From a virus: a DNA stretch of 27,856 nt. The DNA is taken from positions 1 through 27,856 of IMG/VR virus record IMGVR_UViG_3300032223_001836. One strand, 5' to 3'. Position numbers and translations under genes: made by a program. The notes beneath the pieces were generated by a model. That model was not told the DNA's origin. It searched no databases and saw nothing but the letters and a program-made list of their open reading frames with translations. Shown one piece after another: positions 3 through 27,856 of this stretch. Positions within the stretch are counted from its first letter, which is position 1, and every line of letters starts with the position of its first letter.

Positions 3-2567
3 ACAGATGTAGCCCATAACTTTGCGCCTGGAGAGATAGTTAGAGTAAGAACTCTAAATCCGGCAATCAATGGTGACCACGTAATTGCTACAGTTCCTTC
101 TACAGCAAGTTTTACTTTTAGTGTCTCTAGTGCTATTGTGCTTGCATTAAGTCCATCTGATACAGGTCTTGCTCGAACAATTGTTGATACTTATGACTTA
201 GCAAGAGACCTTATTGGGTTTATGAACGAAGATTTTTCTACTCTTTCATTTCAAAATGACACGGTAAAGCCTGCTAGTGACCTTCAATACTCTATCTCTA
301 ATAAGGTAATGACTTCTGGGATAGCAACACTTACAACTACTACGCCCCATGACTTAATTTTAGGTCAGCAAATTCAAGTTGTTGATGTTGATACTGCAAT
401 TGATGATTACCAAATAATTACTGCTATTCCGTCTGCATCTACTTTTACAGTAAATACTGGAGGAACAGGAAATATTTCAAGTACAGCAGTAACTCCGTAC
501 ACTACATACAATATAACTTCCGCTGGAATTTTACCTACAGCGCTAAAACTTAATTATTTTCAAGCAACAAATAACGTAGTAACTATGACTACTGATACTG
601 CTCATGGGCTAGTGGTGGGAGATTATGTAAAAATTTCAAATGTATCTAATGTTGTTTCTACTGGAAAAACAGGAACGTGGACCGCTGCATCAAATACTAT
701 GACTATAAATAACAATACTAGCGTATTTATTGGTATGAGCGTATATGCCACTGGAATTTCAAATAGTGCAGTCGTAACAGCAATATCTGGAACAACTGTA
801 ACTATGAGTATGCCAGCAGAGGCTACTGGCTCTGGAGCAGTCAACTTTGCTTATCAAGCAACACTAAATGGTGGATTTTATATAAGTGCTATTCCTACTG
901 TATCAAGTTTTAGTTATGAAACTACAGTTGTTGACCTACCACTAACTGCAATAACAGCAACTGCTGGAGATACTGTATACACTTTCACCTCTGGAACTAA
1001 TGGATTTCTTGTTCAAAATACTAGAGTCTCTGATACAATTAATCCATATCTTTTCTTTAATAAAGGCATAACTTACACGATAATTAATAACTCTGGAAAA
1101 CATCTTTGGATTCAAAGTTCTGGTAATGGTTATGGTGCTGGAAAAGTTTATTCCACGGGTGTGACAAACAATGGAGCAGCCAGCGGGACAATAACATTTA
1201 CTGTATCAAGTGGCGCACCTTCTATTTTATATTTTCAGGCACAGGAAGCAAATAATTTTGCTGGCTCAATATCAATTACTGATTTAGGAACTGCTACATA
1301 TCGCTCTATTGTTTGTACAACATCTCTCCCTCACGGGTTGACTGTAGGAAAAAGCGCTGTAATAGAAAACGTAGGGGCTGACTACAACGGGACTTATAGA
1401 GTCTCATCTACACCTACCTCAACAACATTCAAATGTAACTCTACATCTATTCTTAATCAAGAAGTAGAGGCAGTTTTTGGTGGAACTGTTAGTTGGGGTG
1501 CTCGTGCTACTGCTGGAACTTATGGCTCTTATACTGGAAACTCCGACGCTGGAATTCAAGCAACCTCGGATTTAAGTGGAAAATATATTGGTGTATCTCA
1601 ACAAATTTATCGTGGCTCAGACCTGCGTTCTATTGGAGAAGTACTAGAGGAGTTTTCTAAAGACCTTAATGGCTTCGAGTACCGTATTGATTGTGACTTT
1701 GACCAAAACATAGGTCAGTTCAATAGAACATTTACATTTGTTCCTTTTATTGCTCCCACAACAAAAATTCAAGTAATTAATAAAATACTTACATCTAATG
1801 TAGCAACACTAACTACTGCCTCTGCTCACGGGCTTGTAGCGGGAGAAGATACAGTTGTTACAGGAGTTGGTCTTGGTTTTGATGGCACTCAGACAGTTAT
1901 ATCTACACCTACAACAACAACATTTACTTTTAGTTCTTATAATGTAAACGTTCCTTCTACTGCTACAGCAGGATATATTGGCTTAGTTCACTCACTTAAT
2001 ACTCTTGGTGCAGATAAATTTGTATTTGAATACCCTGGTAATGTTCTTGAGTTCAACATCTCTGAGACAGCAGAAAACTCTGCAACTCGTATGTGGGTTG
2101 CTGGAAACTCGGATGGATTAAATAACACTGCAAGCCAGCCATATGCAGCTGCTACTTCTACAGATATGCTCAATAATGGATGGCCGCTTCTTGACCAAGT
2201 AGAGTCTAAAAATGACACGATAACTACTGCATATGGTGAAAGTGCTCTCTACTCTTACGCTAAAGATTTTGCAGGAGAGGCAAGACCACCAGAAGGAATT
2301 TTTACTATTACTGTCAACGGGTCAATTGGACCATACGTTGGAGACTTCCTACCTGGTGACTGGTGCTCAATTATTATTGACGATGAGTTTGTAAAAATGC
2401 GTCTTGCTAATGATTTAGAGCCTCGTAGTGATATTATTGTTCGTAAAATTGTTGGCTATAAAGTTACAGTCCCAGATACTCCCGTGTTTCCTGAAAAGGT
2501 TTCACTAGAGCTTATCAGTGAGTGGAAAGAAGACCAACGTCTATCTACACTCAAGATTACGGTATAG
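3..2567 (+). CDS. Tail-tip/baseplate-like minor tail protein (5' end beyond window)
   Basis: The reading frame is open to the left edge, so the gene starts outside the window; the internal GTG at 138 is not its start. The protein is a string of beta domains. Five modules of about 45 residues share an 'AHGL..G..V.I..V' start and a 'Y.I..IPT.s.F.f' end (near nt 3-122, 312-455, 573-917 split, 1299-1436, 1791-1937). A cupredoxin-like domain lies at 1044-1283. The last ~180 residues (a 'LGDW.SI.IDD' stretch, then a final 'V.LELISEW') resemble the C-termini of actinophage minor tail proteins that follow the tape measure. The likely role is at the virion tail tip, in structure or host recognition. 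An AGGTGGTG ribosome site for the next gene overlaps its stop. Tail assignment is fairly sure; the exact role is inferred. Confidence 0.75.
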   Translation, partial: TDVAHNFAPGEIVRVRTLNPAINGDHVIATVPSTASFTFSVSSAIVLALSPSDTGLARTIVDTYDLARDLIGFMNEDFSTLSFQNDTVKPASDLQYSISNKVMTSGIATLTTTTPHDLILGQQIQVVDVDTAIDDYQIITAIPSASTFTVNTGGTGNISSTAVTPYTTYNITSAGILPTALKLNYFQATNNVVTMTTDTAHGLVVGDYVKISNVSNVVSTGKTGTWTAASNTMTINNNTSVFIGMSVYATGISNSAVVTAISGTTVTMSMPAEATGSGAVNFAYQATLNGGFYISAIPTVSSFSYETTVVDLPLTAITATAGDTVYTFTSGTNGFLVQNTRVSDTINPYLFFNKGITYTIINNSGKHLWIQSSGNGYGAGKVYSTGVTNNGAASGTITFTVSSGAPSILYFQAQEANNFAGSISITDLGTATYRSIVCTTSLPHGLTVGKSAVIENVGADYNGTYRVSSTPTSTTFKCNSTSILNQEVEAVFGGTVSWGARATAGTYGSYTGNSDAGIQATSDLSGKYIGVSQQIYRGSDLRSIGEVLEEFSKDLNGFEYRIDCDFDQNIGQFNRTFTFVPFIAPTTKIQVINKILTSNVATLTTASAHGLVAGEDTVVTGVGLGFDGTQTVISTPTTTTFTFSSYNVNVPSTATAGYIGLVHSLNTLGADKFVFEYPGNVLEFNISETAENSATRMWVAGNSDGLNNTASQPYAAATSTDMLNNGWPLLDQVESKNDTITTAYGESALYSYAKDFAGEARPPEGIFTITVNGSIGPYVGDFLPGDWCSIIIDDEFVKMRLANDLEPRSDIIVRKIVGYKVTVPDTPVFPEKVSLELISEWKEDQRLSTLKITV

Positions 2568-3757: not shown

Positions 3758-6700
3758 ATGGCTGGCGGTTACGTATGGGACAACTCTAGTTGGCGTTCCA
3801 TAAATTCAGCATACTTTTGGAATAACTCTGCTTGGACAAAAATTACTTCTGGTTGGATGTGGGATGGCTCTGTTTGGAAACAAATACTTTCATCTGGAAC
3901 ATTCTTTCCAGAGGTAAGAAACTCTTCTGGCAGTGCTTTTACTACTATAAATGTTGGCATTGGTATGTACGGGTATCGAGGCTCTGACGTTTCAGGAACT
4001 TACGTATATCAATGGCAGTATGCTGCCGATACCCCCACTTCTTGGTATTCTCAGACGGGCACAAACAACTCTGGAACCCTTACAGGAACTACCACAACAA
4101 CACCCTATTATTATACAAGTGCTAGCGATTTAAGTTATATCGCTAGCTCTCTCTATCACTATCAACTTTATATGAGACTGAGAGTTATAAAAGGCACCGA
4201 AACTCAGTTTAGCCAAGTAGTTCAAGTAACTAAGAGACAAGCATCTCTAAAAATTCTTACTGTAAAAGCCGCAACAGCAGGTACAGCAGGTGCATCAACA
4301 GTATTCGTAGCAAGCACAACTGGAATCACCGCTGGTCAGTATATAAATGGAATTGGTATTGGAAATAATGCATACGTCAGCGGTGTAACAAATTCAACTA
4401 CCCTTGCTGTAAGCCCTGCAAATGTTTCCACTGTAACAGGAAATGACCTTATTTTTGATGGTCCACAAGTTAGATTTGTTAGATATCAGTATGTTCCTGG
4501 TGTTGGAGCACTTCCTTTTACATATAGCGCACTTGCCTCGTATAGTTCGGATGGCTCGGACTCAACTCCTGCATATTCTTTTTCTTTTAATAATGCAAAG
4601 GCTCCTCAAGCATACGAAACACTGACAGTATCTAGTAACTGGAATACAACAAAAGTAATTACTAATGACTCTCGACCAGATTATTATATTTATACTTACA
4701 GAGCAGGCTCTGGAACTACTATAAAAGACTCTAGAGTTACAGATAGTAGTGCTCCAGGTACTCCCACTAATGCTTCTCAGTATTCAACTGTTCCAGCAGA
4801 TGTCTACTCTCCCGTAACTATTACTATAGATGCATATACAAGTAATCCTCTTTCACCAAAAACTCTTACTTTAGTTTCAAGAACTGTGAGTAGTGGTGCT
4901 CTTACCCCACCATCAACTCTTACAATTGGCTACAAAAATGGCTCTCTTCAATTTTCTTGGGATTCAGCAGATGGTGGAAATACAAATCCTATTTACTACA
5001 CTGTATATCTAGAACGTTCTGGCTCTCTTGTTTATACTTCTGCTCAAACAACTTCTCTTAGTGCAACATATGCCACATCTGTCAGTGGAAGTTATAGATT
5101 TCAAGTTGGTGTAACTCAGGCTGGGAGCTCGAATGTTGGGTCTGGATATTCTAATTATTTCTTAATAGAAGCGCCTAAAACATTTACTTATGCAATTACT
5201 AACTCAACAAATGACCCTGCTAATCAGCCAGGAGATTTTACTATTAGTGCTCCTGTTGCAAGTACCACTGTACTCAATAGATATGATTGGACATGGTCAG
5301 CATCCTCTACAGCAACATCCTACTCTGATACTATCTATCGTCCAGATGGCACTAGTAGCCCATTTACTAATTCGATACAACCTGCATATACTGATTATTG
5401 GCCAATAACAGTAACTGGCTCCTATAAACTTGCAGTAACTGCCTCACAAAAAACAAATAATTATTTCACACTTACTTGGGATAAACCAACTGATACAACA
5501 GCCATAAGTTATCGAATAAACTATACTTATTATACAAATAACTATGCAACAACTGTAGGGCCAACAAATCTTAATGTGGAAGATATAACTTCCTATACTT
5601 GGACTCTTCCATATAAAACAGATTATATATTTATCAATAGTATTACTGCATACTCCCTATCTGCTCAGAATGTAAGCTCTCTTACTACTACAATCTCAAC
5701 TACTAAATATGCAACAGGATATATAACAGGCTCTAAAACTGTAGAAAGAACAGATACTCTTAATTTCCTTGCTGTCACTCACGGCTCTGCATCTGTCTCT
5801 TTTAGTGGAGGAACACCTACTCCTGAAGTGGGTTGCGTTCTTACGGTAAACAAAGCTGGATATATTCCAGACCCTGCACTGAACTCTAACTGGACATTTA
5901 CTTATCAGTGGTGGCGCTCTGCTGAGCCCTTATATACAGCGTATTCAATATCTGGTGCAACAAATTCTACTTATACAACTGGTATTTCAGACACTGGTTG
6001 TCGAGTTTGGTGCGTAGTAAGTTCTAATTATTTAGGAAATACTGGAACTGCTACCGCTCCTTATGTATTTATTGATGTCCCGCCGCCAACATTTACATTA
6101 ACTGATAATGGATTTAGAAATTATATAATTAGCAGTGTAAGCATAAATGCAACAGGTACTATGACTTATTCTGGAGCTGATAGCTACTCTAACTCTATCC
6201 CGTCCACACTTGCAGGAGTCTCCTACACTAGTCTTACAAAAGTTCCTTCGGGGTACATGACTGTGACTCTTAGTAGTAAAGCAGTTATAGCAAGACAACT
6301 TAGTGTAGGAGGGCTAAGTACAGCAAATTACACGTATAACTCTCCTAGAAGTACTACAAATAACATAACAATACAGCCTGGACCACAGGATACGGGAAGT
6401 ATTAGAAGCGTCTACCTTGGTGGTGGAGTAGTAAATCCTGGTGCAGTTCTGTATGTATCTACTAATGGATACCTTACTTTTAATACTGTTCCGTCTACTT
6501 CTTGGCAAGATTTTCCTGCGACTGGAAGTTTTTTGAATGTGGCAGGCAATGACTTAGTTCAAACAAGCCTAAAAATGTCTGAAGAAATAGAAGGTATTTA
6601 TTTTAGATGGCGCGGATATAGGTATGGAACTACTAACTATTTAGAGTATGAAGTATTCTATCCCTGGGGCGGATACTATGCAACTGTTTATTTTGTACAA

Positions 6701-8773
6701 AATGACCTAGCAAGTTATGTCACTAATAGAGCAAAAATTCTTACAAATGTAACTCAATCAAATTATAATACATCATCAGTTACATCTTATACTCCTTTGT
6801 CTACTTTTAGAATTGATAGAGGTCAAATTGTAGACGTTGGAAGTTATGACGATGGCTATACCTCTATTACAGGTTGGGGAAGATTCCCTAATATAACTGT
6901 AGATACTCCTGTAAAAACAGATGGCGGATTTACTTTTAATGTTACAAATTACAATACTTTGAAATCATATGTATCAAATGGAACATTTGCTTCTTCAGCA
7001 TATTTTAACCCATCTGTTACAGGAGCCTCTGTAACAGTTAGCACGGCTGGTCTTGTGACAGTTACTGGCTTAGCAGTAAGTACATCTGCAACAGTAGTTG
7101 TAACTGTAAGTGCAACATCTTTTTATCCAAAAAGTATATCAGTCACGGGTCAATCTATGGACCCTATTGCTCCGTACTACACGGTTGCCCCTACATATAG
7201 TGGTACTGCTGAAGCAGGAACTAGTATGACCTACACAAGTGGTACTTGGAAAGGTATACCTGCCCCCACCGTTGCTTCGTATCACGAGTATTTTTCTTAT
7301 CCAACTTCTGGTAATACATATTATGCTAACCCAACATCAGCAACATTTACTACAACTAATGTTGTAACAACTACTAACCCTCTTACCGTATCCGCTCTCT
7401 CTGCTAGCAAACCTTCTTTTGTATACAGAGGAGTTGTTATAGCAAAAAACTCTCAGGGAACAACTTACTGGACATCAAATGGTGTAGCGCAAGGAAATCA
7501 AGATACTGGAATTCTTTCTTTTATGACACCTACGGTAAGTACTCCTACTATATCAACTCCTACTAATACAGGGTTTAAGGTAACTTGGACAGCAGGAGTA
7601 AATGGTTCTCCATCAGGATATGCCTCTTATATAACATCTAAAGTAGAAATTTATGACTCTAATAAATCTCTTCTTGCAACAGTAAATCCTGCTACAAGTC
7701 CTTATACATGGACTGGTGGCGCTTCAAATAAAGACTACTATGTAAAAGTATATGTAACAGCAAATGATACTAGTCAGCACGTTGTAGATAGTGGATACAT
7801 TGCTGCTGCTTCTCTAAAGCCAGTTGTCAAAACAGCAAGTCCTACTATCTCTGGTGGAACATCTACTGGAACAGATGTTTCTTTTTCTGCTGGAACATAT
7901 GATAATGCTAAAACAATTACAACTGCTTTAGTAACTACAACAAATGGAAATACCCCCACATCAGGCTCATTTAGTTCAAATAGCGGGACAAAAAGTCCTA
8001 CTGGCACTGGGTACTACACAATTGCAGGTGCTGATGCCGATAATCCTCCATTTATTTTTGCTACTAGAGACACGGTTCTTGGTCTTGATGGGAACACTAC
8101 TTATTTTTATAGTGGCGGTGGCTCGACAACAGCACTTAGCACTGTAACAATCAATAGTGGCTCTGGAGCAATCGTGTCCACCCTTGCAACAGGAACTGCT
8201 CCAACATTCGGAACCTCCTCGGCTGTGTCCACTACAAGTTGGAAAGCACTTATTACTAATTGGAGCTCAACATACAGTTACTCGGTTACAGTTTCCACTG
8301 GTTCAGGTACTGTAAATTCATCTGGAGAAGTAGTTGTTACAGGTCTTACTGCAAGTACCAGCCCTTCCTCAACTACTGCGACTGTTACTGTAAAAGCACC
8401 AGGGTATACATCTAAGTCAGCAACTGCAACTGGAACTCCAAGCGCCGCTGTGGCAACTACTACCATCCCTAATGCTCCAGGGGGGGTATATGGAAGTAAT
8501 GACGTGTCTCCTACTGGAGGTACTTTTTATTGGAATGCTTCTACTGTAGATGCATCTCACAGTGCTGCAGTTAGTTATGAATGGCAAGCTTATTACCTAA
8601 GTGGAACTACAAAAGTGTACTATCCATCTGGAACAACGTCAACTACTTGGACTAGTGCAGGAAGCAATACTTCTCAACAATTCAAAGCAGCTCGTACATT
8701 TTATTTTTCAGTTAGAGCAAGAAACTCTGCTGGAGTAAGTTCAGCAAGTGGTACATCGGGTACATTTACATAA
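3758..8773 (+). CDS. Giant tail fibre/adhesin with fibronectin and Ig-like domains
   Basis: A 1671-residue protein from ATG 3758, behind a weak purine-rich site. Residues 5-46 are three tandem ~14-residue repeats with the pattern W(D/N)(N/G)S.W..I, a Trp-rich motif often seen at the start of actinophage tail proteins. Residues 167-234 hold a copy of the beta module described among the findings. Several fibronectin type III-like units follow, for example the stretches around 'LQFSWDSADGG', 'FTLTWDKPTD', 'FKVTWTAGVNG' and the last ~100 residues ending 'FSVRARNSAGVSSASG'. An Ig-like unit lies near 'FTYQWWRSAEP'. Composition is Ser/Thr/Tyr-rich with few Cys. It should project from the virion and bind the host surface or a glycan. 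A run of seven G at 8480-8486 sits just before the last domain. Domain names are by eye. Confidence 0.72.
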   Translation: MAGGYVWDNSSWRSINSAYFWNNSAWTKITSGWMWDGSVWKQILSSGTFFPEVRNSSGSAFTTINVGIGMYGYRGSDVSGTYVYQWQYAADTPTSWYSQTGTNNSGTLTGTTTTTPYYYTSASDLSYIASSLYHYQLYMRLRVIKGTETQFSQVVQVTKRQASLKILTVKAATAGTAGASTVFVASTTGITAGQYINGIGIGNNAYVSGVTNSTTLAVSPANVSTVTGNDLIFDGPQVRFVRYQYVPGVGALPFTYSALASYSSDGSDSTPAYSFSFNNAKAPQAYETLTVSSNWNTTKVITNDSRPDYYIYTYRAGSGTTIKDSRVTDSSAPGTPTNASQYSTVPADVYSPVTITIDAYTSNPLSPKTLTLVSRTVSSGALTPPSTLTIGYKNGSLQFSWDSADGGNTNPIYYTVYLERSGSLVYTSAQTTSLSATYATSVSGSYRFQVGVTQAGSSNVGSGYSNYFLIEAPKTFTYAITNSTNDPANQPGDFTISAPVASTTVLNRYDWTWSASSTATSYSDTIYRPDGTSSPFTNSIQPAYTDYWPITVTGSYKLAVTASQKTNNYFTLTWDKPTDTTAISYRINYTYYTNNYATTVGPTNLNVEDITSYTWTLPYKTDYIFINSITAYSLSAQNVSSLTTTISTTKYATGYITGSKTVERTDTLNFLAVTHGSASVSFSGGTPTPEVGCVLTVNKAGYIPDPALNSNWTFTYQWWRSAEPLYTAYSISGATNSTYTTGISDTGCRVWCVVSSNYLGNTGTATAPYVFIDVPPPTFTLTDNGFRNYIISSVSINATGTMTYSGADSYSNSIPSTLAGVSYTSLTKVPSGYMTVTLSSKAVIARQLSVGGLSTANYTYNSPRSTTNNITIQPGPQDTGSIRSVYLGGGVVNPGAVLYVSTNGYLTFNTVPSTSWQDFPATGSFLNVAGNDLVQTSLKMSEEIEGIYFRWRGYRYGTTNYLEYEVFYPWGGYYATVYFVQNDLASYVTNRAKILTNVTQSNYNTSSVTSYTPLSTFRIDRGQIVDVGSYDDGYTSITGWGRFPNITVDTPVKTDGGFTFNVTNYNTLKSYVSNGTFASSAYFNPSVTGASVTVSTAGLVTVTGLAVSTSATVVVTVSATSFYPKSISVTGQSMDPIAPYYTVAPTYSGTAEAGTSMTYTSGTWKGIPAPTVASYHEYFSYPTSGNTYYANPTSATFTTTNVVTTTNPLTVSALSASKPSFVYRGVVIAKNSQGTTYWTSNGVAQGNQDTGILSFMTPTVSTPTISTPTNTGFKVTWTAGVNGSPSGYASYITSKVEIYDSNKSLLATVNPATSPYTWTGGASNKDYYVKVYVTANDTSQHVVDSGYIAAASLKPVVKTASPTISGGTSTGTDVSFSAGTYDNAKTITTALVTTTNGNTPTSGSFSSNSGTKSPTGTGYYTIAGADADNPPFIFATRDTVLGLDGNTTYFYSGGGSTTALSTVTINSGSGAIVSTLATGTAPTFGTSSAVSTTSWKALITNWSSTYSYSVTVSTGSGTVNSSGEVVVTGLTASTSPSSTTATVTVKAPGYTSKSATATGTPSAAVATTTIPNAPGGVYGSNDVSPTGGTFYWNASTVDASHSAAVSYEWQAYYLSGTTKVYYPSGTTSTTWTSAGSNTSQQFKAARTFYFSVRARNSAGVSSASGTSGTFT

Positions 8774-18294: not shown

Positions 18295-18579
18295 GTGTCC
18301 CGCAAACCTTGGGAATTTGAAAATCCTTTGTGCTCTGAGATAGGAACAGAATTGTTCTTTTTAGAGGATAGAGATGAGAAAACAGTATTTTCTCAAGAAG
18401 AATATAAACAAGCCCAGAAAATATGCTTTTCCTGTTCTCATAGAACAGAGTGCGCTGAGTGGGCAATCTATAACGAAGGTTTTGGAGTCTGGGGTGGTCT
18501 AACGGCTAAAGATAGAGCCCAAATAAGACGAGCAAGAAATATTAATTTAACCGTGTCGTTGACACTCTCTACGATGTAA
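18295..18579 (+). CDS. WhiB-like iron-sulfur regulator 1
   Basis: A 94-residue protein from GTG 18295, with AAAGG (18283-18287) as ribosome site. The four cluster cysteines of the Wbl family are present: Cys13, Cys44, Cys47 and Cys53 (C..30..C-x2-C-x5-C). They are followed by the family turn 'GVWGG' (64-68) and a basic 'RRAR' stretch. WhiB proteins bind a 4Fe-4S cluster and the host primary sigma factor. Phage versions, such as TM4 WhiBTM4, can repress host whiB genes and block superinfection. Here it may steer host RNA polymerase or sense redox state. It is one of two Wbl proteins in this window, and the two are not close copies. Confidence 0.93.
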   Translation: MSRKPWEFENPLCSEIGTELFFLEDRDEKTVFSQEEYKQAQKICFSCSHRTECAEWAIYNEGFGVWGGLTAKDRAQIRRARNINLTVSLTLSTM

Positions 18580-19331: not shown

Positions 19332-19853
19332 ATGTGGAAACCAGCAGATAGCCTAGAGTGGCAACGTAGTGCTGTATGCGCCAAGCCTCAAAATAAAGAC
19401 AAAATAGACTGGTTCTTTTCTTCAGATTTTCAAGAAAAATATGCTGCTAAAAACCTTTGCTTTACTTGCCCTGTTCGTAAAAATTGTTTGCAGTGGAGCC
19501 TAGAGCATCGTCAAATATGGGGCGTATGGGGTGGTAAAGACGAAGTAGAACTACGTAGAACTCTTTCGGTGTCTTACCTAGGAGATGAAGTCCGTAGACG
19601 TCGTTACCCCAACTGTCCCTATTGCACCGCTCGTCCTGGAAAATTAGAAGTATCTGTAGAAAAACTATCTGCAACTGGAAGATGGACAACAGCAAAAGTT
19701 GTTACCTGTACAGAGTGCGGATTTTGTTGGAGAAGTAGAACAAGTGCTAATGCTGTTGAAGCATATAAAATTGAGCGAGCAGAGAAATTAGAAAAACAAG
19801 AAAAGGCTAAAGCAAAACTCAAGAAGCCTAGAAAATCTAAGACTCCTCTTTAG
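19332..19853 (+). CDS. WhiB-like regulator 2 with extra C-terminal zinc ribbon
   Basis: A 173-residue protein with the Wbl domain in the first ~80 residues: Cys16, Cys43, Cys46, Cys52, then 'GVWGG' (64-68) and 'ELRRTL'. Unlike ordinary WhiB proteins of 80-130 residues it continues with a basic linker ('RRRR') and a zinc ribbon-like unit, Cys95-x2-Cys98 and Cys126-x2-Cys129. It ends in a Lys-rich tail. The extra part may add DNA binding. ATG 19332 lacks a ribosome site and directly follows a palindromic promoter, pointing to leaderless translation. Its 3' end overlaps the convergent glycosyltransferase gene by 17 bases. The WhiB assignment is firm; the ribbon is inferred from Cys spacing. Confidence 0.92.
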   Translation: MWKPADSLEWQRSAVCAKPQNKDKIDWFFSSDFQEKYAAKNLCFTCPVRKNCLQWSLEHRQIWGVWGGKDEVELRRTLSVSYLGDEVRRRRYPNCPYCTARPGKLEVSVEKLSATGRWTTAKVVTCTECGFCWRSRTSANAVEAYKIERAEKLEKQEKAKAKLKKPRKSKTPL

Positions 19854-20925
19854 TTTTCTCTAAATCATATTTTTCTTGATAATACTTTAAGTTTTCAAAT
19901 AGACGAGATGTATGTTCTTCTGACGCGATGGAGAGAGCATCTCTTCCATAAGCAAGTGCATCTTCATACTTACCTGTGTAGTAGGCGCCCATAGCAGCTA
20001 AATCGTGAGGTAAGTATCCCCAAGCAAAATCTTCACATAGGTATTCCATAGGGCGTTCTTTAATTGCTAAAGCCTTTTTTGCAGCCGTTAAGCAGTTAGG
20101 CCAATCTAAATTATCATAGTAGTATTGTGCAAGTTCTACTAAAGCCTCGCGGCGCCCGGGGCACTCTTTTACTGCATTAGTAATCCAAATAAGTTTTTGC
20201 TCATTGTCTTCTTCTGTCTTAGCAATATATCGCATTGATGCTGCTCGTTCTGGCTTCCAAACGGCTGTCTTGAGGCTTAGGTGATGCTTGAATGCTTTAT
20301 TTGCTTCTTTATATCTTCCATGAAAGAAAAGTTCACGAGCATAGTAATAAGCATTTCTATCATCCATAGGGTCTTCTTCTACAGACAACTTAAGAAGTGG
20401 CAGATATTGACCACGAGATTTTGTATTATCAGCCTTGTGATAAAGATTTAGTTGAGACCAATACTGAACTTCAGTGATGCGGTCAGGAGTAATTACTTCA
20501 TGTACTGGATGCTTCCAACGGTAATGATGACGTGCGTGTATTTTATCTCCGCCAAATACAAGCCCGGGGGTACCGTCTGGATTAAAATTCCACGTATAGT
20601 TATATCTAATGCGGGTAGCGTCTTTAGAAGCCTTCTCCATCTCTTGACGCCAACCCTCTCCTAGCAGTTCATCCATATCTAAAGAAATGCACATATCAAT
20701 ATCGTCGGGAAGTAAGGCTAGTGCTGCATTACGAGAGTCATCAAAACGCCAAGGCTTTACTGAAATTGTTGCTACATTGATTCCTAGACTTCTTGCTAAC
20801 TCAACGGTGTTATCTGTTGAGCCAGTATCTGCAATAAACAGATAGTCTGCTTCTTTACAAGAGTCATACCAACGCTGAACAAATTGTTCCTCGTTAAGGG
20901 CAATAGTGTAGACGGCAATCTTCAT
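19837..20925 (-). CDS. GT2-family glycosyltransferase with TPR-like C-terminus
   Basis: A 362-residue protein. The first ~230 residues are a GT-A fold family 2 transferase: 'IALNEE' at the start, 'DTGSTDNT' (33-40) for the nucleotide sugar, 'RFDDSRNAAL' (60-69), and the metal-binding Asp-x-Asp in 'SLDMDELL' (83-85). The rest is helical with repeat-like pairs ('AYYYARELFFHGRYKEANKAF' spacing, 'LVELAQYYYDNLDWPNCLTAAKKAL'-type units, each cut short here), typical of TPR tails. It would add a sugar to a phage protein, DNA or host surface polymer. It follows the terminator of the minus-strand structural operon, has no ribosome site, and seems to use its own leaderless promoter (TAGAAT, 20932-20937). 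Confidence 0.85.
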   Translation of the reverse strand: MKIAVYTIALNEEQFVQRWYDSCKEADYLFIADTGSTDNTVELARSLGINVATISVKPWRFDDSRNAALALLPDDIDMCISLDMDELLGEGWRQEMEKASKDATRIRYNYTWNFNPDGTPGLVFGGDKIHARHHYRWKHPVHEVITPDRITEVQYWSQLNLYHKADNTKSRGQYLPLLKLSVEEDPMDDRNAYYYARELFFHGRYKEANKAFKHHLSLKTAVWKPERAASMRYIAKTEEDNEQKLIWITNAVKECPGRREALVELAQYYYDNLDWPNCLTAAKKALAIKERPMEYLCEDFAWGYLPHDLAAMGAYYTGKYEDALAYGRDALSIASEEHTSRLFENLKYYQEKYDLEKTKEES

Positions 20926-21711: not shown

Positions 21712-24700
21712 TTAGAGGACTGCCTTATCGAACCAGCGAATGATAGCAAGCCCGTCTGCACCGTTACCACCTGTTGAAAGGTTAGGGAAGTACTGAACTC
21801 CACCAAAGTCAACGTCAACAACATCGCCAGCATCTAGGTAATTGAACTCCCAGCATACATCAAAGTATGCAGCATTTGACGGAGCAGAAAGTGTCTGCCA
21901 AGGAGAAGGCACTGTTGTTGAACCATTCAAATATGTAGTTGTGTTAGTTGACGAGAAGAGGATGTCATATGGAGGACGGTCTTCACGAATAATCTGTCCA
22001 TCGTAAGTCTTCCAGCGAACTGTTGGACGAGCACGCTTTGACAAACCAACAAACTGTGTTGATGTTGCGCCAGCAGGTGCTGTTGTTAGACGAGCAGCGA
22101 TGTTAGTAAAGAACAATGGTGTACGAGGCAGGATTGAGAATTCTGTAAAGGTTGTTTGAACCTTTGCATTTCCTACATCCTGAATTGTTACACGAAGTCC
22201 GTTTGTAGCAATCAAACCAGCAGCTGAAGTAATTGCTGTTGTTGCATTGAAAATTGGTGACCACTTGTACTGCTCTGCGTTAGCAGTATCATAGTTGATA
22301 GCATTGTTAGCAGCATGGTTCTGAGGTGTAAATGGAGCGTTGTTCTGGTTTGTAGAACCACCTCCACCACCACCACCTGTATTAGCAATCGCATCAAGAC
22401 CACGAGCGTAGTAGTTAGTGTTGTTAGCAAGGTCAACAAGGTAGTTTCCGCCACCCTTACCTCCGCCACCATTTCCACGACCTGGAACTGTTGCAAACTG
22501 AGAGTTAGTTAAGAAGCCTGCGCCTCCGCCTCCACCACCAAGTGTGAGACCTAGAGGTGAACCGCTATTGAGACCTGAAGGGTTAGTTCCAAGTCCACCT
22601 TCACCAGCAGTTGCTGGGATAACTGTGTTAGAAGAACCTGTATTCCACATAGCGTATCCACCGTTATTACCACGCATTGGGAATGTCTGCTGAGTTGAGC
22701 CAGCAGATGAACCAAAGCCTGCTGAATATGAGAATGTTGTTGAACCAGAAGATGTTGGTGTAAACATCATTGGGTTTCCGCCAGCCTGGAATGAACCGCC
22801 TCCACCACCAGCAAGAGTCATATTCTGGTAAGTTCCACCAGATACCCAAGCAGCGTGTCCGCCGTTATTTCCGCCTTCAATACCCCACTGCCATACTGGA
22901 GTGTTGGAGTTATAAGTACCTCCACCTCCACCGCCTTCTGCCATAACAGATGCGGCTGTGATGATTTGTGAAGCACCAGCCTGACCACCGTATGCATAAG
23001 TTCCATCATTAGGACGCTTGAATACAGTTGATGTTGCGCCTGCTTCTAGCTGAGGAGCAACGATTGAAAATTCAACTACACCACCTGTAGCAGATGTTGC
23101 GCCTTGGTAGTAAGACACACCAAAGCGAGCATATGCTGCTGTTGCAGGTGCTGTTGCAACTACACCAACACGAACAGGATATGTTGTTCCTGCAATGCTG
23201 TTTGTCTGAGTTGAGTTAGCAAGACCTGTAATAGGTAAGAATGTATTTGTTCCATATGTACGTGTAAGGGAGTTATAGTCCTTATCAAAGTACTCAAGGA
23301 AAGCGTTCATTGGGCGGTAAGTATTTGATGTACCTCCACCAATTACGAATGCAGTTCCTGTGTATGAAATATTTGGAGAAATTTTTGAGAAGCGGTGTGC
23401 TGCTTCTAAGTTACCACCAGCAGTTGAGTTACCTGTCAAAAGAACAGCTGCATCATTGTAGTAAAGAGGTGGTAGCCAAGTTGTTGCTTGTGAGCCAACC
23501 TCTAACTGTACGTTATCAACCCATACGTTTGTAGATGGCTGACCAAATACAAGTGTTGGGTAAATAAACTGTGGTGTTGAACCATAAGCATAGATACCGT
23601 TAGCAAGTGCTGCAGCAATTGTAGGAGTTGTCACTGTACCTGAGATACGGCGCCATCCTGTCTGTCCTACAGTTACTGTAGAACCAAGAACTTGAACACC
23701 TGAAGGCACCTGAGCTGTTACTGTTGTTGCAGATAAAGGTGCAGAAGTTACTGCGCTAAGTGTAATTGTTGTTCCAGCAATACCAGCAATTGTTGTAGAT
23801 GACTGAATACCAGCACCTGTAATTGCCTGACCAACTAGCAACTGTGAAGCATCAGTAACTGTAATTGTTAAAGATGCGCTTGAGCCTGTTGCTGTTGTTG
23901 TAACAGTTCCACCGTAGCCAGCAAGAGATGTTGGGATAACTTGACGAACAAAGAATCCGTTTGATGTAGCAGCATCAATAGAGTTTGCTGTACCAGAGTT
24001 AGTTCCACCAAGGTAGTTTGCTGCTGTATCAGCACCATATGTAGCACCAGTTGAGCGCAACTGGAACTTGATTGGTGTTGTTGAAGCAATGTTTACTGTT
24101 GAAGAAACATATGCAGAAATTGTATAAGTCTGACCTGGCTGATATGGAATTCCACTATAACCAGCAGATGTTGTAAGAACACCAGAAGTTGTTGATGCTG
24201 TACCTGTTAGGTTAGACATATTTACCCAAGTTGGGTTTGAGTCTGTAACAGATGAGCCAATTGATACTAGAAGTGCATACTGCCCGACGCTACCTGTATA
24301 AGAAAACGATAGAGACGCTGCAGAGATAGGTCCAGTTGTAGGGTTAGAGATAGTTACCTGAGTTGTGCTGTCTACGCTAACAACAACAGTTCCTGAAGTA
24401 ATACCAGAACCTGTAACAAACATATCTGTTTGAATATTTGTTGTATCAGAGCAGGTAAGTGTGTAAGAAGATGATGCTGCAGTGACTGTCTTTGTATAAG
24501 GAACAATCATTTCAGTCAACTTGGTTGGAAGACCTGCGTTTGTAATAGCAAGTGTAGCTGGGTTATTTCCCTTTACAACAAGGAATCCACCAGAATATAG
24601 TGTTGGGTCTTCAAACTGTGCAAGACGTGGTGGAAGCAAATTGTTTGATAACAAAGTTGTGTAAGGCGCTGATGCCGAACCAATTGTTTGTGTATTTGAA

Positions 24701-25389
24701 GTTGGAGTGCTTCCTGAAACAGCATTGTAAGTTGTCTGTACTGGACGAAGAATTGATGAACCAGTATTGAATGACACCATTGTGTTTACAGCACCAGCGT
24801 TTACAACGCTAAGACCAACTACGTTTCCAGAGATAGAAAGAATCTGTGTGCTAGTTCCAAGGTTTGTACCTGTTGCATACATACCAACAGCGAGACCATT
24901 TGAGTTAGGAAATACGGTAATAGAACCGCCACCTGAAACACCAGATGCAGCACGGAACAAGTAATCTTGGTCCCAAGCAACTGCACCGTACTCAAAGAGT
25001 GCGTTTGTTAGATAGTTAGCAATATTCATTGTTCCAAATGCAGTGTTTCCACCATTTGAACCAGGAAGAGTGTTTACAACGTCAGATGCGGATGTCTGAG
25101 AACCCTGACCACCTTGTCCACCTGCACCAATTGTTACAGAGTAAGTTGTTCCAGGAACGACTGTGAGGTTTTTGGTGATTACTTGACCACCACCACCACC
25201 GCCACCTGCTACAGCGGATGAACCGCCACCTCCGCCTCCGCCTGCACCAACAAGAATTACCTGTGCGCTTGTTACGCCAGTTGGGACAGTCCATGTACCG
25301 CTGGCAGTGTAAGTTGCCTCATTGACGTATACGCGACCTGAGTTGTCATTAGGGAAGACAATAAAGTCTTTACTTGATGAAATAGCCAT
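21712..25389 (-). CDS. Large glycine-rich adhesin/tail fibre with nested domains
   Basis: A 1225-residue protein from ATG 25389. Residues ~28-120 begin a glycine-rich fibre domain ('GTWTVPTGVTSAQVILVGAGG', 20-base rule respected by reading ~31-50, then a Gly-rich stretch and 'TTYSVTIGAGGQGG'). The matching second half of that domain appears only at ~830-1060. In between lie three copies of a ~60-residue beta module (152-210, 302-366, 497-560). Two jelly-roll units also lie there, ending 'DNVQLEVGSQATTW' (~625-638) and 'PQLEAGATSTVF', typical of carbohydrate-binding domains in phage proteins. The C-terminal ~150 residues are another beta domain. It probably binds host surface glycans. Composition is Gly/Thr/Ser-rich with almost no Cys. 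Confidence 0.75.
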   Translation of the reverse strand: MAISSSKDFIVFPNDNSGRVYVNEATYTASGTWTVPTGVTSAQVILVGAGGGGGGGSSAVAGGGGGGGQVITKNLTVVPGTTYSVTIGAGGQGGQGSQTSASDVVNTLPGSNGGNTAFGTMNIANYLTNALFEYGAVAWDQDYLFRAASGVSGGGSITVFPNSNGLAVGMYATGTNLGTSTQILSISGNVVGLSVVNAGAVNTMVSFNTGSSILRPVQTTYNAVSGSTPTSNTQTIGSASAPYTTLLSNNLLPPRLAQFEDPTLYSGGFLVVKGNNPATLAITNAGLPTKLTEMIVPYTKTVTAASSSYTLTCSDTTNIQTDMFVTGSGITSGTVVVSVDSTTQVTISNPTTGPISAASLSFSYTGSVGQYALLVSIGSSVTDSNPTWVNMSNLTGTASTTSGVLTTSAGYSGIPYQPGQTYTISAYVSSTVNIASTTPIKFQLRSTGATYGADTAANYLGGTNSGTANSIDAATSNGFFVRQVIPTSLAGYGGTVTTTATGSSASLTITVTDASQLLVGQAITGAGIQSSTTIAGIAGTTITLSAVTSAPLSATTVTAQVPSGVQVLGSTVTVGQTGWRRISGTVTTPTIAAALANGIYAYGSTPQFIYPTLVFGQPSTNVWVDNVQLEVGSQATTWLPPLYYNDAAVLLTGNSTAGGNLEAAHRFSKISPNISYTGTAFVIGGGTSNTYRPMNAFLEYFDKDYNSLTRTYGTNTFLPITGLANSTQTNSIAGTTYPVRVGVVATAPATAAYARFGVSYYQGATSATGGVVEFSIVAPQLEAGATSTVFKRPNDGTYAYGGQAGASQIITAASVMAEGGGGGGTYNSNTPVWQWGIEGGNNGGHAAWVSGGTYQNMTLAGGGGGSFQAGGNPMMFTPTSSGSTTFSYSAGFGSSAGSTQQTFPMRGNNGGYAMWNTGSSNTVIPATAGEGGLGTNPSGLNSGSPLGLTLGGGGGGAGFLTNSQFATVPGRGNGGGGKGGGNYLVDLANNTNYYARGLDAIANTGGGGGGGSTNQNNAPFTPQNHAANNAINYDTANAEQYKWSPIFNATTAITSAAGLIATNGLRVTIQDVGNAKVQTTFTEFSILPRTPLFFTNIAARLTTAPAGATSTQFVGLSKRARPTVRWKTYDGQIIREDRPPYDILFSSTNTTTYLNGSTTVPSPWQTLSAPSNAAYFDVCWEFNYLDAGDVVDVDFGGVQYFPNLSTGGNGADGLAIIRWFDKAVL

Positions 25390-25417: not shown

Positions 25418-25723
25418 TTAGGAGACGAGAACGCCAGAAATTAAGAAATCTACTGCTGACCCAAGGTCTGCAACAACAGTGATTGTCTCTCCTGCATTTG
25501 CTACGGTACGAGCGTCAAAGTTGACCGTTCCGTTTCCTGGTACTTGAAGACCAGTGCAGAATGAGAACCCTCCAACAGTGATTGTTGCGGTTCGGGTATT
25601 TCCTGTCTTGTTAGACAGAATAATATTTGTGATAATTGCTTGGTTAAGCGCAGGTACAGTGTACGCTGATGAATCAGACGTAGCGGCGGTACCAGCGCGG
25701 AATCGAGTTACTGTAGTTGCCAT
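25418..25723 (-). CDS. Small beta-sandwich structural protein
   Basis: A 101-residue protein from ATG 25723, overlapping the upstream stop by one base (TAATG), with GGGAG about ten bases before the start. Alternating strands ('AIITNIILSNKTGNTRTATITV', read as ~29-50, and 'ITVVADLGSAVDFLISGVLV') suggest an eight-strand sandwich. This is like small phage proteins that decorate virions or cap fibres. It lies between a coiled-coil protein and the giant adhesin. No enzymatic residues are visible. Confidence 0.62.
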   Translation of the reverse strand: MATTVTRFRAGTAATSDSSAYTVPALNQAIITNIILSNKTGNTRTATITVGGFSFCTGLQVPGNGTVNFDARTVANAGETITVVADLGSAVDFLISGVLVS

Positions 25724-26061
25724 TATGCTAGTACTCCCATGTACGCTAGGACGGTTAGATTGGTTGCGGTTGTGTTAACTGCTGCGACTGCCGTTGTTTG
25801 AGCATTTGTAATAGCAGTTGTTGCAGTTGATTGTGCATTTGTAATTGCTGTTGTTGCTGTTGTTCCCGCTGAAGTAACAGATGTTACCTGAGCAGCGGTT
25901 GCTGCTACGATGTCGTTGACACCAAGCAAATTTCCAAGTGTTTCTAAGGCCTTGGCAACAAACACCAAATCTTGAGCACTATACGTGCTAGCAGCTAAAC
26001 TGTCGGTAATCTCAGTCTTGAGAGCCGTAATTTGGGTGCTTAAGGATGAATAATCAGGCAC
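25723..26061 (-). CDS. Coiled-coil structural protein with Ala/Thr repeats
   Basis: A 112-residue protein from GTG 26061, with AGGTAGG about nine bases upstream. Residues ~1-25 form one helix. Residues ~68-100 contain tandem ~11-residue repeats of the type ATTAITNAQST, a long Ala/Thr-rich helix seen in trimeric fibre stalks. It sits after the right-edge tail gene and before two fibre-like genes, so a stalk or linker for the minus-strand fibre is likely. No other domain is visible. Confidence 0.62.
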   Translation of the reverse strand: MPDYSSLSTQITALKTEITDSLAASTYSAQDLVFVAKALETLGNLLGVNDIVAATAAQVTSVTSAGTTATTAITNAQSTATTAITNAQTTAVAAVNTTATNLTVLAYMGVLA

Positions 26062-26129: not shown

Positions 26130-27856
26130 TTATGCCTGAGCCTCGTTCCAAGAGATACGTGCTGAAATATTGGCTGTTGCTGTACCGATATTAGTAGCGG
26201 CAATAACCAAGATATCTGGGGCATTTGGGTATCCAGGAGTAGAGACGTTTCCATCACCACTAAGGATTGAGTTTCCTAGGTCTCGGATTGAGAGCAAGGA
26301 GAACGTTGATGAGTTGTATGCAGTTGTAGAACCGTTTTCTGTATAGAACGAGAATACGGAGTCTCCACCTAATACAAGACCTGAAGCAGCCTTAGCAATA
26401 CCTCCACCAGGACCTGTATTATCAAAATAAAGAACCTGAGCCAAAGAACCTGAACCTACAAGGTCGCGACCCCAGTCTAACGGGATACCTGAATATCCAG
26501 CCTTGGGAGTAAATGAAACAGTATCTGATGTGGTGATGGCTCCAGTAAGAGTTGTGCTTAGGTTTACTTGGTTACCAACAATTGAAGTAACTGTAGTTCC
26601 AGTTGCAATACGAGTTGTTACGTTATTTACAGTAACTACCATACCAACAGCAATACCAAGAACACCAGCAGTGTCCGATGTGCTGATAGTTAGAGATGGA
26701 GTTCCATTATTTCCAGTTGCATATGTTGTAGTTCTAATCAACTGTGATGCAGTCCACTTAGTGTAAGAGATATTGAGTGGATTCAAAAGACCATCAAGAC
26801 GGAACGAACCGTTTGTCTGTACTCCAATAGCGTTCATCTGAAGTTGCATTCGATTGATAAGCTCACGAACACCAAACCCACGGGCAATTGCGTTATCTAC
26901 AGAAGGTGCTAGACGTACAGCAAGAAGCGGACGCTGAACACCTGGTTCAACGGCAAGGTAACGAATCATACCTCCAGTAAAGATAAAGTTTTGGTCATTA
27001 TCAAAACGACCATCCATAATGACAGATGAGCCCCAGTGGGAAATCATAGGGGCGCAGTTTTGAGTAATTGATTGAACTGATACCTGAGCAGAGCCACCAG
27101 CACCTGTAATTGATGAATCTGGTGTAAATACAACACGGTCTGTTGTCCCAGAGAATACAAATGGTTGGTCAGGATAGACAATACTTACTGAAGCGCGACG
27201 TTGAGAAACATAGATTGGTGCCGCACCCTTGGTTGCGTCAAAAACTCCAAGTGATGAGTACTTCATAATTTCGCAGTAGTTATCATCACGAACATAGATA
27301 TAACCTGTTGCTGGCCAGTCGTGAGTATTTTCAATCCAGAGCACGGTGTCATCTGCTGAAAGAGCTGTTCCCTTAACTCCAGATGCTCCACCTGCAAGCA
27401 TACGTGAAAAATATAGAGGGTCATTGGCTACTTCATAACGAGCAGGTAAGTTACCTGAGCGCTGATATGCAGTGTTGTTAGCATTGTTTTGTGGCATACG
27501 ATGACACCAAGTGACTTTACCATTTGGCCCACGCATACCAAAACGAACTGTTCCAGCTCCATACCAAGTATAGTCAATATAAATCATCTGCATACGAGAA
27601 ACATCAAGTTTATAGCCTGAAGGACCTGTTCCATCAAACTTATCAATATTCCATTCATCTTGAGCAAAACGGTCTACTTGAGTCATTAAGTAGCGCATAC
27701 CTGAAGCGTTTGGTCCACGATAAGCAGGAGATACGTTCATAGAAGTATCAGAGTTAATTTGAATTACACGGTATGTAGAGCCTTTGATAACAATTGTCTG
27801 ACCCGCGTTGATTTGCTTACGGAAGTTTGTATTTGTTCCTGTAATCAAACTTGAAA
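26130..27856 (-). CDS. Large virion protein resembling cyanophage structural proteins (5' end beyond window)
   Basis: The frame is open to the right edge, so the true start lies outside; the TTG at 27848 is internal. At least 574 residues are in the window. The N-terminal part has 'GTNTNF', 'SDTSMNVSPAYRG', then 'IDYTWYGAGTVRFGMRG' and 'YQRSGNLPARYEV'. These are motifs I recall from structural proteins of T4-like cyanophages. A copy of the shared ~60-residue beta module lies at 26505-26723, inside what looks like a C-terminal domain. Few Cys. It is the most upstream gene of the minus operon seen here and probably a baseplate, neck or fibre-base protein. The cyanophage link is from memory. Confidence 0.68.
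   Translation of the reverse strand, partial: SSLITGTNTNFRKQINAGQTIVIKGSTYRVIQINSDTSMNVSPAYRGPNASGMRYLMTQVDRFAQDEWNIDKFDGTGPSGYKLDVSRMQMIYIDYTWYGAGTVRFGMRGPNGKVTWCHRMPQNNANNTAYQRSGNLPARYEVANDPLYFSRMLAGGASGVKGTALSADDTVLWIENTHDWPATGYIYVRDDNYCEIMKYSSLGVFDATKGAAPIYVSQRRASVSIVYPDQPFVFSGTTDRVVFTPDSSITGAGGSAQVSVQSITQNCAPMISHWGSSVIMDGRFDNDQNFIFTGGMIRYLAVEPGVQRPLLAVRLAPSVDNAIARGFGVRELINRMQLQMNAIGVQTNGSFRLDGLLNPLNISYTKWTASQLIRTTTYATGNNGTPSLTISTSDTAGVLGIAVGMVVTVNNVTTRIATGTTVTSIVGNQVNLSTTLTGAITTSDTVSFTPKAGYSGIPLDWGRDLVGSGSLAQVLYFDNTGPGGGIAKAASGLVLGGDSVFSFYTENGSTTAYNSSTFSLLSIRDLGNSILSGDGNVSTPGYPNAPDILVIAATNIGTATANISARISWNEAQA

Follow-up and report, generated by a model that had tools for sequence, protein, structure and literature searches.

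The stretch of DNA examined here (the window) is the whole of IMG/VR virus record IMGVR_UViG_3300032223_001836, 27,856 bases in length and possibly only part of a genome. Its minus strand carries an open reading frame (ORF) at positions 21712 to 25389 that runs from ATG to stop and encodes a protein of 1225 amino acids (aa), a probable adhesin for which forty-five full-length relatives were found; frame 1 of the plus strand contains many stops over the same interval. The protein is proposed to be built on one glycine-rich domain divided into three pieces, between which three jelly rolls (A, B and C) and three small portable modules (M1, M2 and M3) are predicted to lie. It opens with a conserved segment (residues 1-25, positions 25315 to 25389) presumed to serve in tail attachment, within which residues 1-20 are conserved more highly than any other block in the family (mean frequency of the commonest residue, 0.93). 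All parts of this gene given below are on the minus strand.

The glycine-rich domain was recognised at residues ~26-121 (25027 to 25314), ~807-1015 (22345 to 22971) and 1205-1225 (21715 to 21777), these being its start, of tumour necrosis factor (TNF)-like and glycine-lattice character, its middle and its closing strand. The start was delimited by motif scores and by a match to Pfam family Gly_rich_2 (PF21722) at residues 31-192, which covers positions 6-133 of the 226 in the profile (E = 9.8e-15) and extends into M1. The whole protein scores 55.6 bits, over the gathering cut-off of 24.3, and the family is matched by thirty-six of thirty-seven aligned members at E ≤ 0.01. On scanning the final 31 residues alone, residues 1197-1219 were found to match profile positions 202-225 of 226 (E = 0.026). 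The two ends of a single profile sit about 1000 residues apart, the second of them being weak. Six motifs were also scored against 200 shuffles, with results printed for five proteins. Those of the N-terminus score 44.1 and 49.8 in the window (shuffled maxima, 14.1 and 5.7), while the last glycine run, IANTGGGGGGGS at 1001-1012, scores 23.1 (shuffled maximum, 15.3); the middle piece was placed using this run and by-eye alignment to uninterrupted relatives. The closing strand was placed from the profile end and the position of the closing motif, which in 53 of 53 proteins (a partly redundant set of the window protein, forty-five relatives and seven others) scores best among the final 25 residues. 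By eye, the inserts take up ~670-690 residues after NTAFG (115-119), and a second gap of ~190 residues separates ANTGGGGGGG (1002-1011) from GGNGADGLAIIRWF (1207-1220). As the hairpin motif and the motif of the strand following the insert give no support, the first insertion site was placed by eye, and the exact insertion points are putative.

Relatives in which the domain is uninterrupted were identified by a scan with conserved N-terminal stretches (at least 600 stretches matched, with fifty-five confirmed among the matches listed). Comparison with such relatives had been suggested by the initial annotation: in an alignment of fifteen natural examples (246-306 aa) the parts keep the same order without the inserts, the N-terminal strands being followed by NSSFGSLL, runs and loops of glycine, NTGGGGGGG, a short tip and GGSGYC.ITYWS. 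The uninterrupted relative L098 (269 aa) is predicted to fold as a single domain (predicted local distance difference test (pLDDT) 77.3, predicted template modelling score (pTM) 0.82); eight strands fall within residues 1-106, and the domain is closed by a single further strand at 262-268. Structural comparison (VIA) of this model gave as best match the fibre of cyanophage Pam3 (7ypx; Z = 18.2, root-mean-square deviation (rmsd) 2.4, 189 residues aligned, 28% identity), together with the Bxb1 tail tip (9d93_Qa; Z = 16.7, rmsd 3.4, 189 aligned, 31% identity) and the glycine-rich domains of ALK/LTK (Z = 7.1-9.3). The likeness to the Pam3-type fold was measured on L098; by analogy, the second insertion site, in the last glycine loop, would lie at the distal tip and the first, in a hairpin joining two strands, at the opposite end. 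The initial annotation had proposed one split domain, which is consistent with the profile ends at both chain ends, the fifteen uninterrupted relatives and the L098 model. It gave the boundaries as ~28-120 and ~830-1060, against the start, middle and closing strand recognised here; the single site of insertion that it implied is replaced by two (~119 and ~1012-1206), and the one fold that it called a fibre fold is better described, from the L098 model and VIA, as a TNF-like and glycine-lattice tip domain. Tandem glycine-rich domains within one protein of 566 or 561 aa were seen at two loci (L110:1823-3520 and L118:4890-6572).

A model of the full chain was built for residues 26-1225 aligned with thirty-six relatives (model numbering is protein numbering minus 25). 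Both B and C are modelled with a carbohydrate-binding module (CBM)-type (CBM4/16/22-like) jelly-roll fold. Jelly roll C (residues ~1018-1204, 21778 to 22338) matches CBM16 2zey in VIA (Z = 12.8, rmsd 3.1, 141 of 144 residues aligned, model 998 to 1176). The main part of B (residues 641-790, 23020 to 23469) was assigned from matches to a K2-2 tailspike domain (8iq9, residues 424-577; Z = 12.7, rmsd 2.7, 142 aligned) and to CBM22 1dyo (Z = 12.2, 153 of 156 residues aligned, model 96 to 764). VIA ranges give the first and last aligned residue only; that of 8iq9 covers model 98 to 760 (protein 123-785), and fourteen of fifty VIA matches begin at model 89-100 and finish at 760-777, with 132-172 residues aligned (rmsd 2.7-5.6). 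From the model and these fourteen matches, residues 122-150 (24940 to 25026) are predicted to form the first strands of B, and a further strand at residues 213-226 (24712 to 24753; model 187-197) probably also belongs to it. Jelly roll A would comprise residues ~240-301 (24487 to 24672, approximate boundaries), 367-494 (23908 to 24291) and 567-640 (23470 to 23691). Its assignment as a jelly roll comes from predicted strands, in its first and third parts, and from sub-threshold matches to CBM_4_9 (PF02018) in its second; these are at 414-451 in the window protein (E = 0.17) and at 331-366 in relative L088 (E = 1.6e-5). The same family was matched under its cut-off in the B region of L049 (658-727, E = 7.3e-4), and at E ≤ 0.01 by six of thirty-seven members. 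Because strands 123-150 and the main part 641-785 are separated by M1 and the entire A region, B appears to lie around A: the outer jelly roll (~123 to ~785) seems to enclose M1 and the whole of A, which in turn holds M2 and M3. Two jelly rolls had been annotated initially, and C, which precedes the closing strand, had been missed. The insertion within an insertion then described agrees with the model, although the nesting predicted is deeper and A and B do not appear to stand in a row; likewise M3 does interrupt a jelly roll, but the model places all three modules, not the third only, inside jelly rolls.

The modules had been recognised correctly as three, and lie at residues ~151-212 (M1, 24754 to 24939), ~302-366 (M2, 24292 to 24486) and ~495-566 (M3, 23692 to 23907). 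They are mutually related by hhalign (profile-profile E values of 1.4e-10, 1.5e-15 and 5.3e-18, each for one template). With their profile, three more window proteins were each found to contain one extra copy: ORF 3-2567 (residues 222-286, positions 666 to 860, plus strand, E = 1.3e-13), ORF 3758-8773 (4277 to 4459, plus strand, E = 1.7e-9) and the virion structural protein at 26130-27854 (26511 to 26723, minus strand, E = 1.7e-9). The first of these copies lies inside an FCCH-like unit (positions ~603-911), the halves of which are 73 residues apart, compared with 3 in another copy in the same ORF and 7 in five copies from Actinomycetia phage DSL-LC01, a lake phage assembled from a metagenome (PMC10611076). 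An E1_FCCH match at residues 190-216 of this ORF (E = 4.6e-4) is under the cut-off. The FCCH-like pattern was self-made and paired three further heads without a tail of their own with a distant one; since it mispairs some heads, the split rests on the module match between the halves, and the genome probably has a second nested insertion here. No match to the module was found in the Pfam scan of the window proteins, nor up to E = 5 in a PDB sequence search with its profile. Tentatively, this beta module of ~62 residues might be a mobile insert that enters loops of unrelated folds (jelly rolls, the FCCH-like unit, the virion structural protein) without breaking them and is gained or lost at fixed sites between related phages, so building nested adhesins stepwise until a module sits in jelly roll A, A in jelly roll B and B in the glycine domain, four levels in all. 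As a separate observation, a protein of 2853 aa of DSL-LC01 named 'ALK tyrosine kinase receptor' (L319:3225-11783, minus strand; OQ999401.1 108221-116782) looks like a virion protein, making its name misleading. It has an ALK-like glycine-rich stretch near the N-terminus and many FCCH-like units (E1_FCCH, E = 6.6e-7), and its C-terminal part resembles, by eye, the window protein at 26130-27854.

Via the N-terminus, sixty-two starts of related genes were found, the forty-five full-length proteins being of 1215-1292 aa. Thirty-one representatives of the latter (97% identity) span the whole window protein, and as the mean gap share is ≤ 0.13 in every 20-residue block, 31 of 31 possess every insert. 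Module counts in the fibre ORFs of sixty-six loci were three (53 loci), two (11) and one (2, both 5'-cut). Ten of the eleven two-module loci, on ten contigs and forming a second clade, lack M2, while the remaining one (L170) is cut off before M3; proteins without M2 show an alignment gap at its place with minor differences nearby. Further scans were checked in part (66 of 66 loci by module count and 8 of 74 by reading, with 57 more not read singly), and no third architecture was seen among the loci checked. One scan for relatives (at least 600 stretches matched, with two confirmed among the matches listed) was dominated by glycine patterns and was repeated without them. A tree of fifty-four module copies (71 columns) has good support at 10 of 51 inner branches and gives no decision between gain and loss of M2; copies of M1 and M3 from the two clades are not sorted by site in it, a pattern that turnover or mere noise might produce. 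Among nine parts compared within the clade, conservation ranges from 77.9% in the closing strand and 74.8% in the glycine-rich start, the two highest values, to 45.8% in M2, the lowest. Distances between domains correlate in the main clade (r = 0.57-0.93), giving no clear sign of domain swapping. As judged from the sequences, the nesting predates the spread of the adhesin family, since no full-length representative lacks an insert and the domains diverge together.

The profile ends at both chain ends (the second weakly), the conserved layout and the presence or absence of M2 are established at the level of sequence, whereas the folds, like the enclosure of A by B, are predicted. The protein is probably a tail-tip adhesin on one discontinuous glycine-rich scaffold with two insertion points that carry binding-type domains. 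Like Pam3 gp24, this scaffold would combine TNF-like strands and glycine loops with a C-terminal strand that closes the domain. Site 1, a short hairpin after residue ~119, would bear jelly roll B, enclosing M1 and A with its M2 and M3, and site 2, the tip of the last glycine loop (~1012-1206), would bear jelly roll C. With the N-terminus docked on the tail, the glycine domain would fold from its distant pieces and probably trimerise like Pam3 gp24, so that up to three carbohydrate-binding-type jelly rolls per chain could be shown to a host-surface glycan, C at the distal tip and A and B on the opposite side, facing the tail or pointing laterally. M1, M2 and M3 may serve as spacers or provide additional contacts. 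An adhesin function is likely; the place on the virion, sugar binding and the trimer are put forward conditionally, and a receptor-binding role is suggested by relatives such as Pam3 gp24.

Several results weigh against this arrangement. The longer C-terminal pieces 794-1225 and 1050-1225 gave no Pfam match up to E = 10, and a profile of the short relatives gave the closing strand 1.3 bits (E = 0.68, hmmsearch) and the middle a negative score. In the motif test, the closing and hairpin motifs of the window (9.2 and 8.6) fall within the shuffled range (maxima, 11.4 and 15.9), the strand expected after the first insert scores best at its place in two of the five proteins printed, L085 and L102, and is missing from that place in the window protein, and the last-glycine-loop motif ranked only third in L085. 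The full-chain prediction, which the initial annotation had called for, recovers jelly rolls B and C but is of moderate confidence overall (pLDDT 75.6, pTM 0.55) and does not give the packing of the ends; its pLDDT drops below 50 at 106-122 and again in parts of 801-989. The low confidence in the glycine-rich middle, the lack of a Pfam match there (residues 794-1060) and the weak match of the closing strand would suit beads on a string, in which the N- and C-terminal glycine-rich parts are independent and the jelly rolls stand in a row between them. This is unlikely given that both ends make one fold in the uninterrupted relative and that the final 31 residues fit the terminal part of the profile begun by the N-terminus; moreover, a lone strand after jelly roll C would hardly fold by itself. 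Independent folding of the glycine-rich parts, named in the initial annotation as what would refute its reading, is likewise made unlikely by the fifteen aligned relatives and the one-domain model of L098.

To be counted on the same side are results concerning the nesting. None of the fifty VIA matches covers jelly roll A alone, and CBM_4_9 stays below its gathering cut-off in the listed proteins (12.7 bits in the window and 25.7 in L088, compared with 25.9). Profile comparison of A with B gave 1.6% probability and of A with C 0.3%, while that of C with B gave 30% (E = 5e-4 for one template). Adding the putative first strands of B gave no better profile match to A or C, and the nesting of A in B is therefore without support from sequence profiles. 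The glycine-rich domain might thus be split with A and B merely successive and residues 123-150 a linker or part of A, an option that the moderate confidence of the model also favours and that we regard as somewhat doubtful. It does not readily account for the fourteen VIA matches that align a single jelly roll across both flanks of A; in addition, the alignment at the start of B has NYLTNPDFDLNVLGWD in L050 and NLLMNPSFSKGVSLWE in L085, both resembling the way in which such jelly rolls usually begin. A different objection is that the glycine-rich domain is merely a scaffold for folding or trimerisation in a protein that decorates the virion. For this speaks phrog_5838, the closest family of the neighbouring structural protein (E = 6e-109), which is classed under head and packaging, and also that the binding role is inferred. 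Virion decoration is nevertheless unlikely, as the best PHROG for the N-terminal part is phrog_863 'tail fiber assembly' (E = 8.1e-17), the top-ranking solved relatives come from a tail fibre and a tail tip, and CBM-type folds serve in phage adhesion devices (PMC9692632).

The kinds of component that make up this probable tail-tip adhesin are already known; novelty lies in how deeply they are nested and in the module that recurs. Pam3 gp24 (7ypx/7yfw) shares the TNF-like strands, the lattice of glycine motifs and the closing C-terminal strand, and its sequence is matched by the profile of the relatives (E = 8.4e-4 and 9.9e-4). Its deposited chains, however, have 280-289 residues, in contrast to the ~870 residues of inserts in the window protein, and it has three domains, the N-terminal one helical, with no inserted jelly rolls described. 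The tail-tip protein of mycobacteriophage Bxb1 (9d93 chain Qa), an actinobacterial phage, has the fold of L098, but since 189 of its 230 modelled residues are aligned there is no room for comparable inserts. Gp38 of Salmonella phage S16 and coliphage PP01 likewise combines a lattice of glycine helices with variable receptor-binding loops at the tip (PMC12892980), although its base is a beta-helix rather than TNF-like and its tip is described as bearing loops and not whole domains; S16 gp38 was not among the fifty VIA matches for L098. In the evolved Dit of lactococcal and related phages a loop of a structural tail domain carries an inserted CBM (PMC9692632). There the host of the insert is the galectin domain of Dit, with a single CBM at one loop in two cases, and the word 'nested' is absent from that paper; no Dit family occurred among the Pfam matches of the window up to E = 1, an absence that is weak evidence. 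ALK/LTK receptors share the TNF-like and glycine-lattice architecture in fold only, being animal receptor tyrosine kinases. The adhesin suggests what load a phage tip domain can bear without losing its fold, as its scaffold would hold the two ends together across ~670-690 and ~190 inserted residues, and the family offers a natural series (uninterrupted, without M2, with M2) for testing the effect of single inserts. It also points to a small recurrent module missed by the Pfam scan and the PDB sequence search.

The whole protein hit only an antibody chain in the PDB (phmmer, E = 0.6), and tblastn against 50,697 phage records found nothing at 1e-5 with the low-complexity filter on, which hides glycine runs. 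A scan of GTDB genomes with glycine-run patterns matched 597 stretches, of which none was confirmed, and is a weak test. Among the papers listed in the literature searches, titles and the beginnings of abstracts contained nothing on this adhesin family, nor the phrase 'nested domain insertion'.

The adhesin gene stands within a run of minus-strand genes, after two small genes (25418-26061) and the structural protein gene at 26130-27854, which runs off the edge of the window. The record's helicase shares 74% identity with its counterpart in DSL-LC01, and the order DNA polymerase, RuvC, helicase, nuclease, RecA, WhiB and glycosyltransferase is common to both, the window genes having been matched by eye and the helicase alone searched. 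As the helicase identity and the gene order agree with this Actinomycetia phage, the host is probably an actinobacterium. The structural protein was matched in 171 phage records, mostly of Synechococcus phages and cyanophages, while the helicase looks actinobacterial. Two small ORFs containing cysteines (18295-18579 and 19332-19853, both plus strand) appear from their motif to be WhiB regulators, and a comparable place in DSL-LC01 carries an annotated WhiB. Downstream of the adhesin gene, past two small genes, lies a probable glycosyltransferase gene (19837-20925, minus strand), and DSL-LC01 has an annotated glycosyltransferase at a comparable place.

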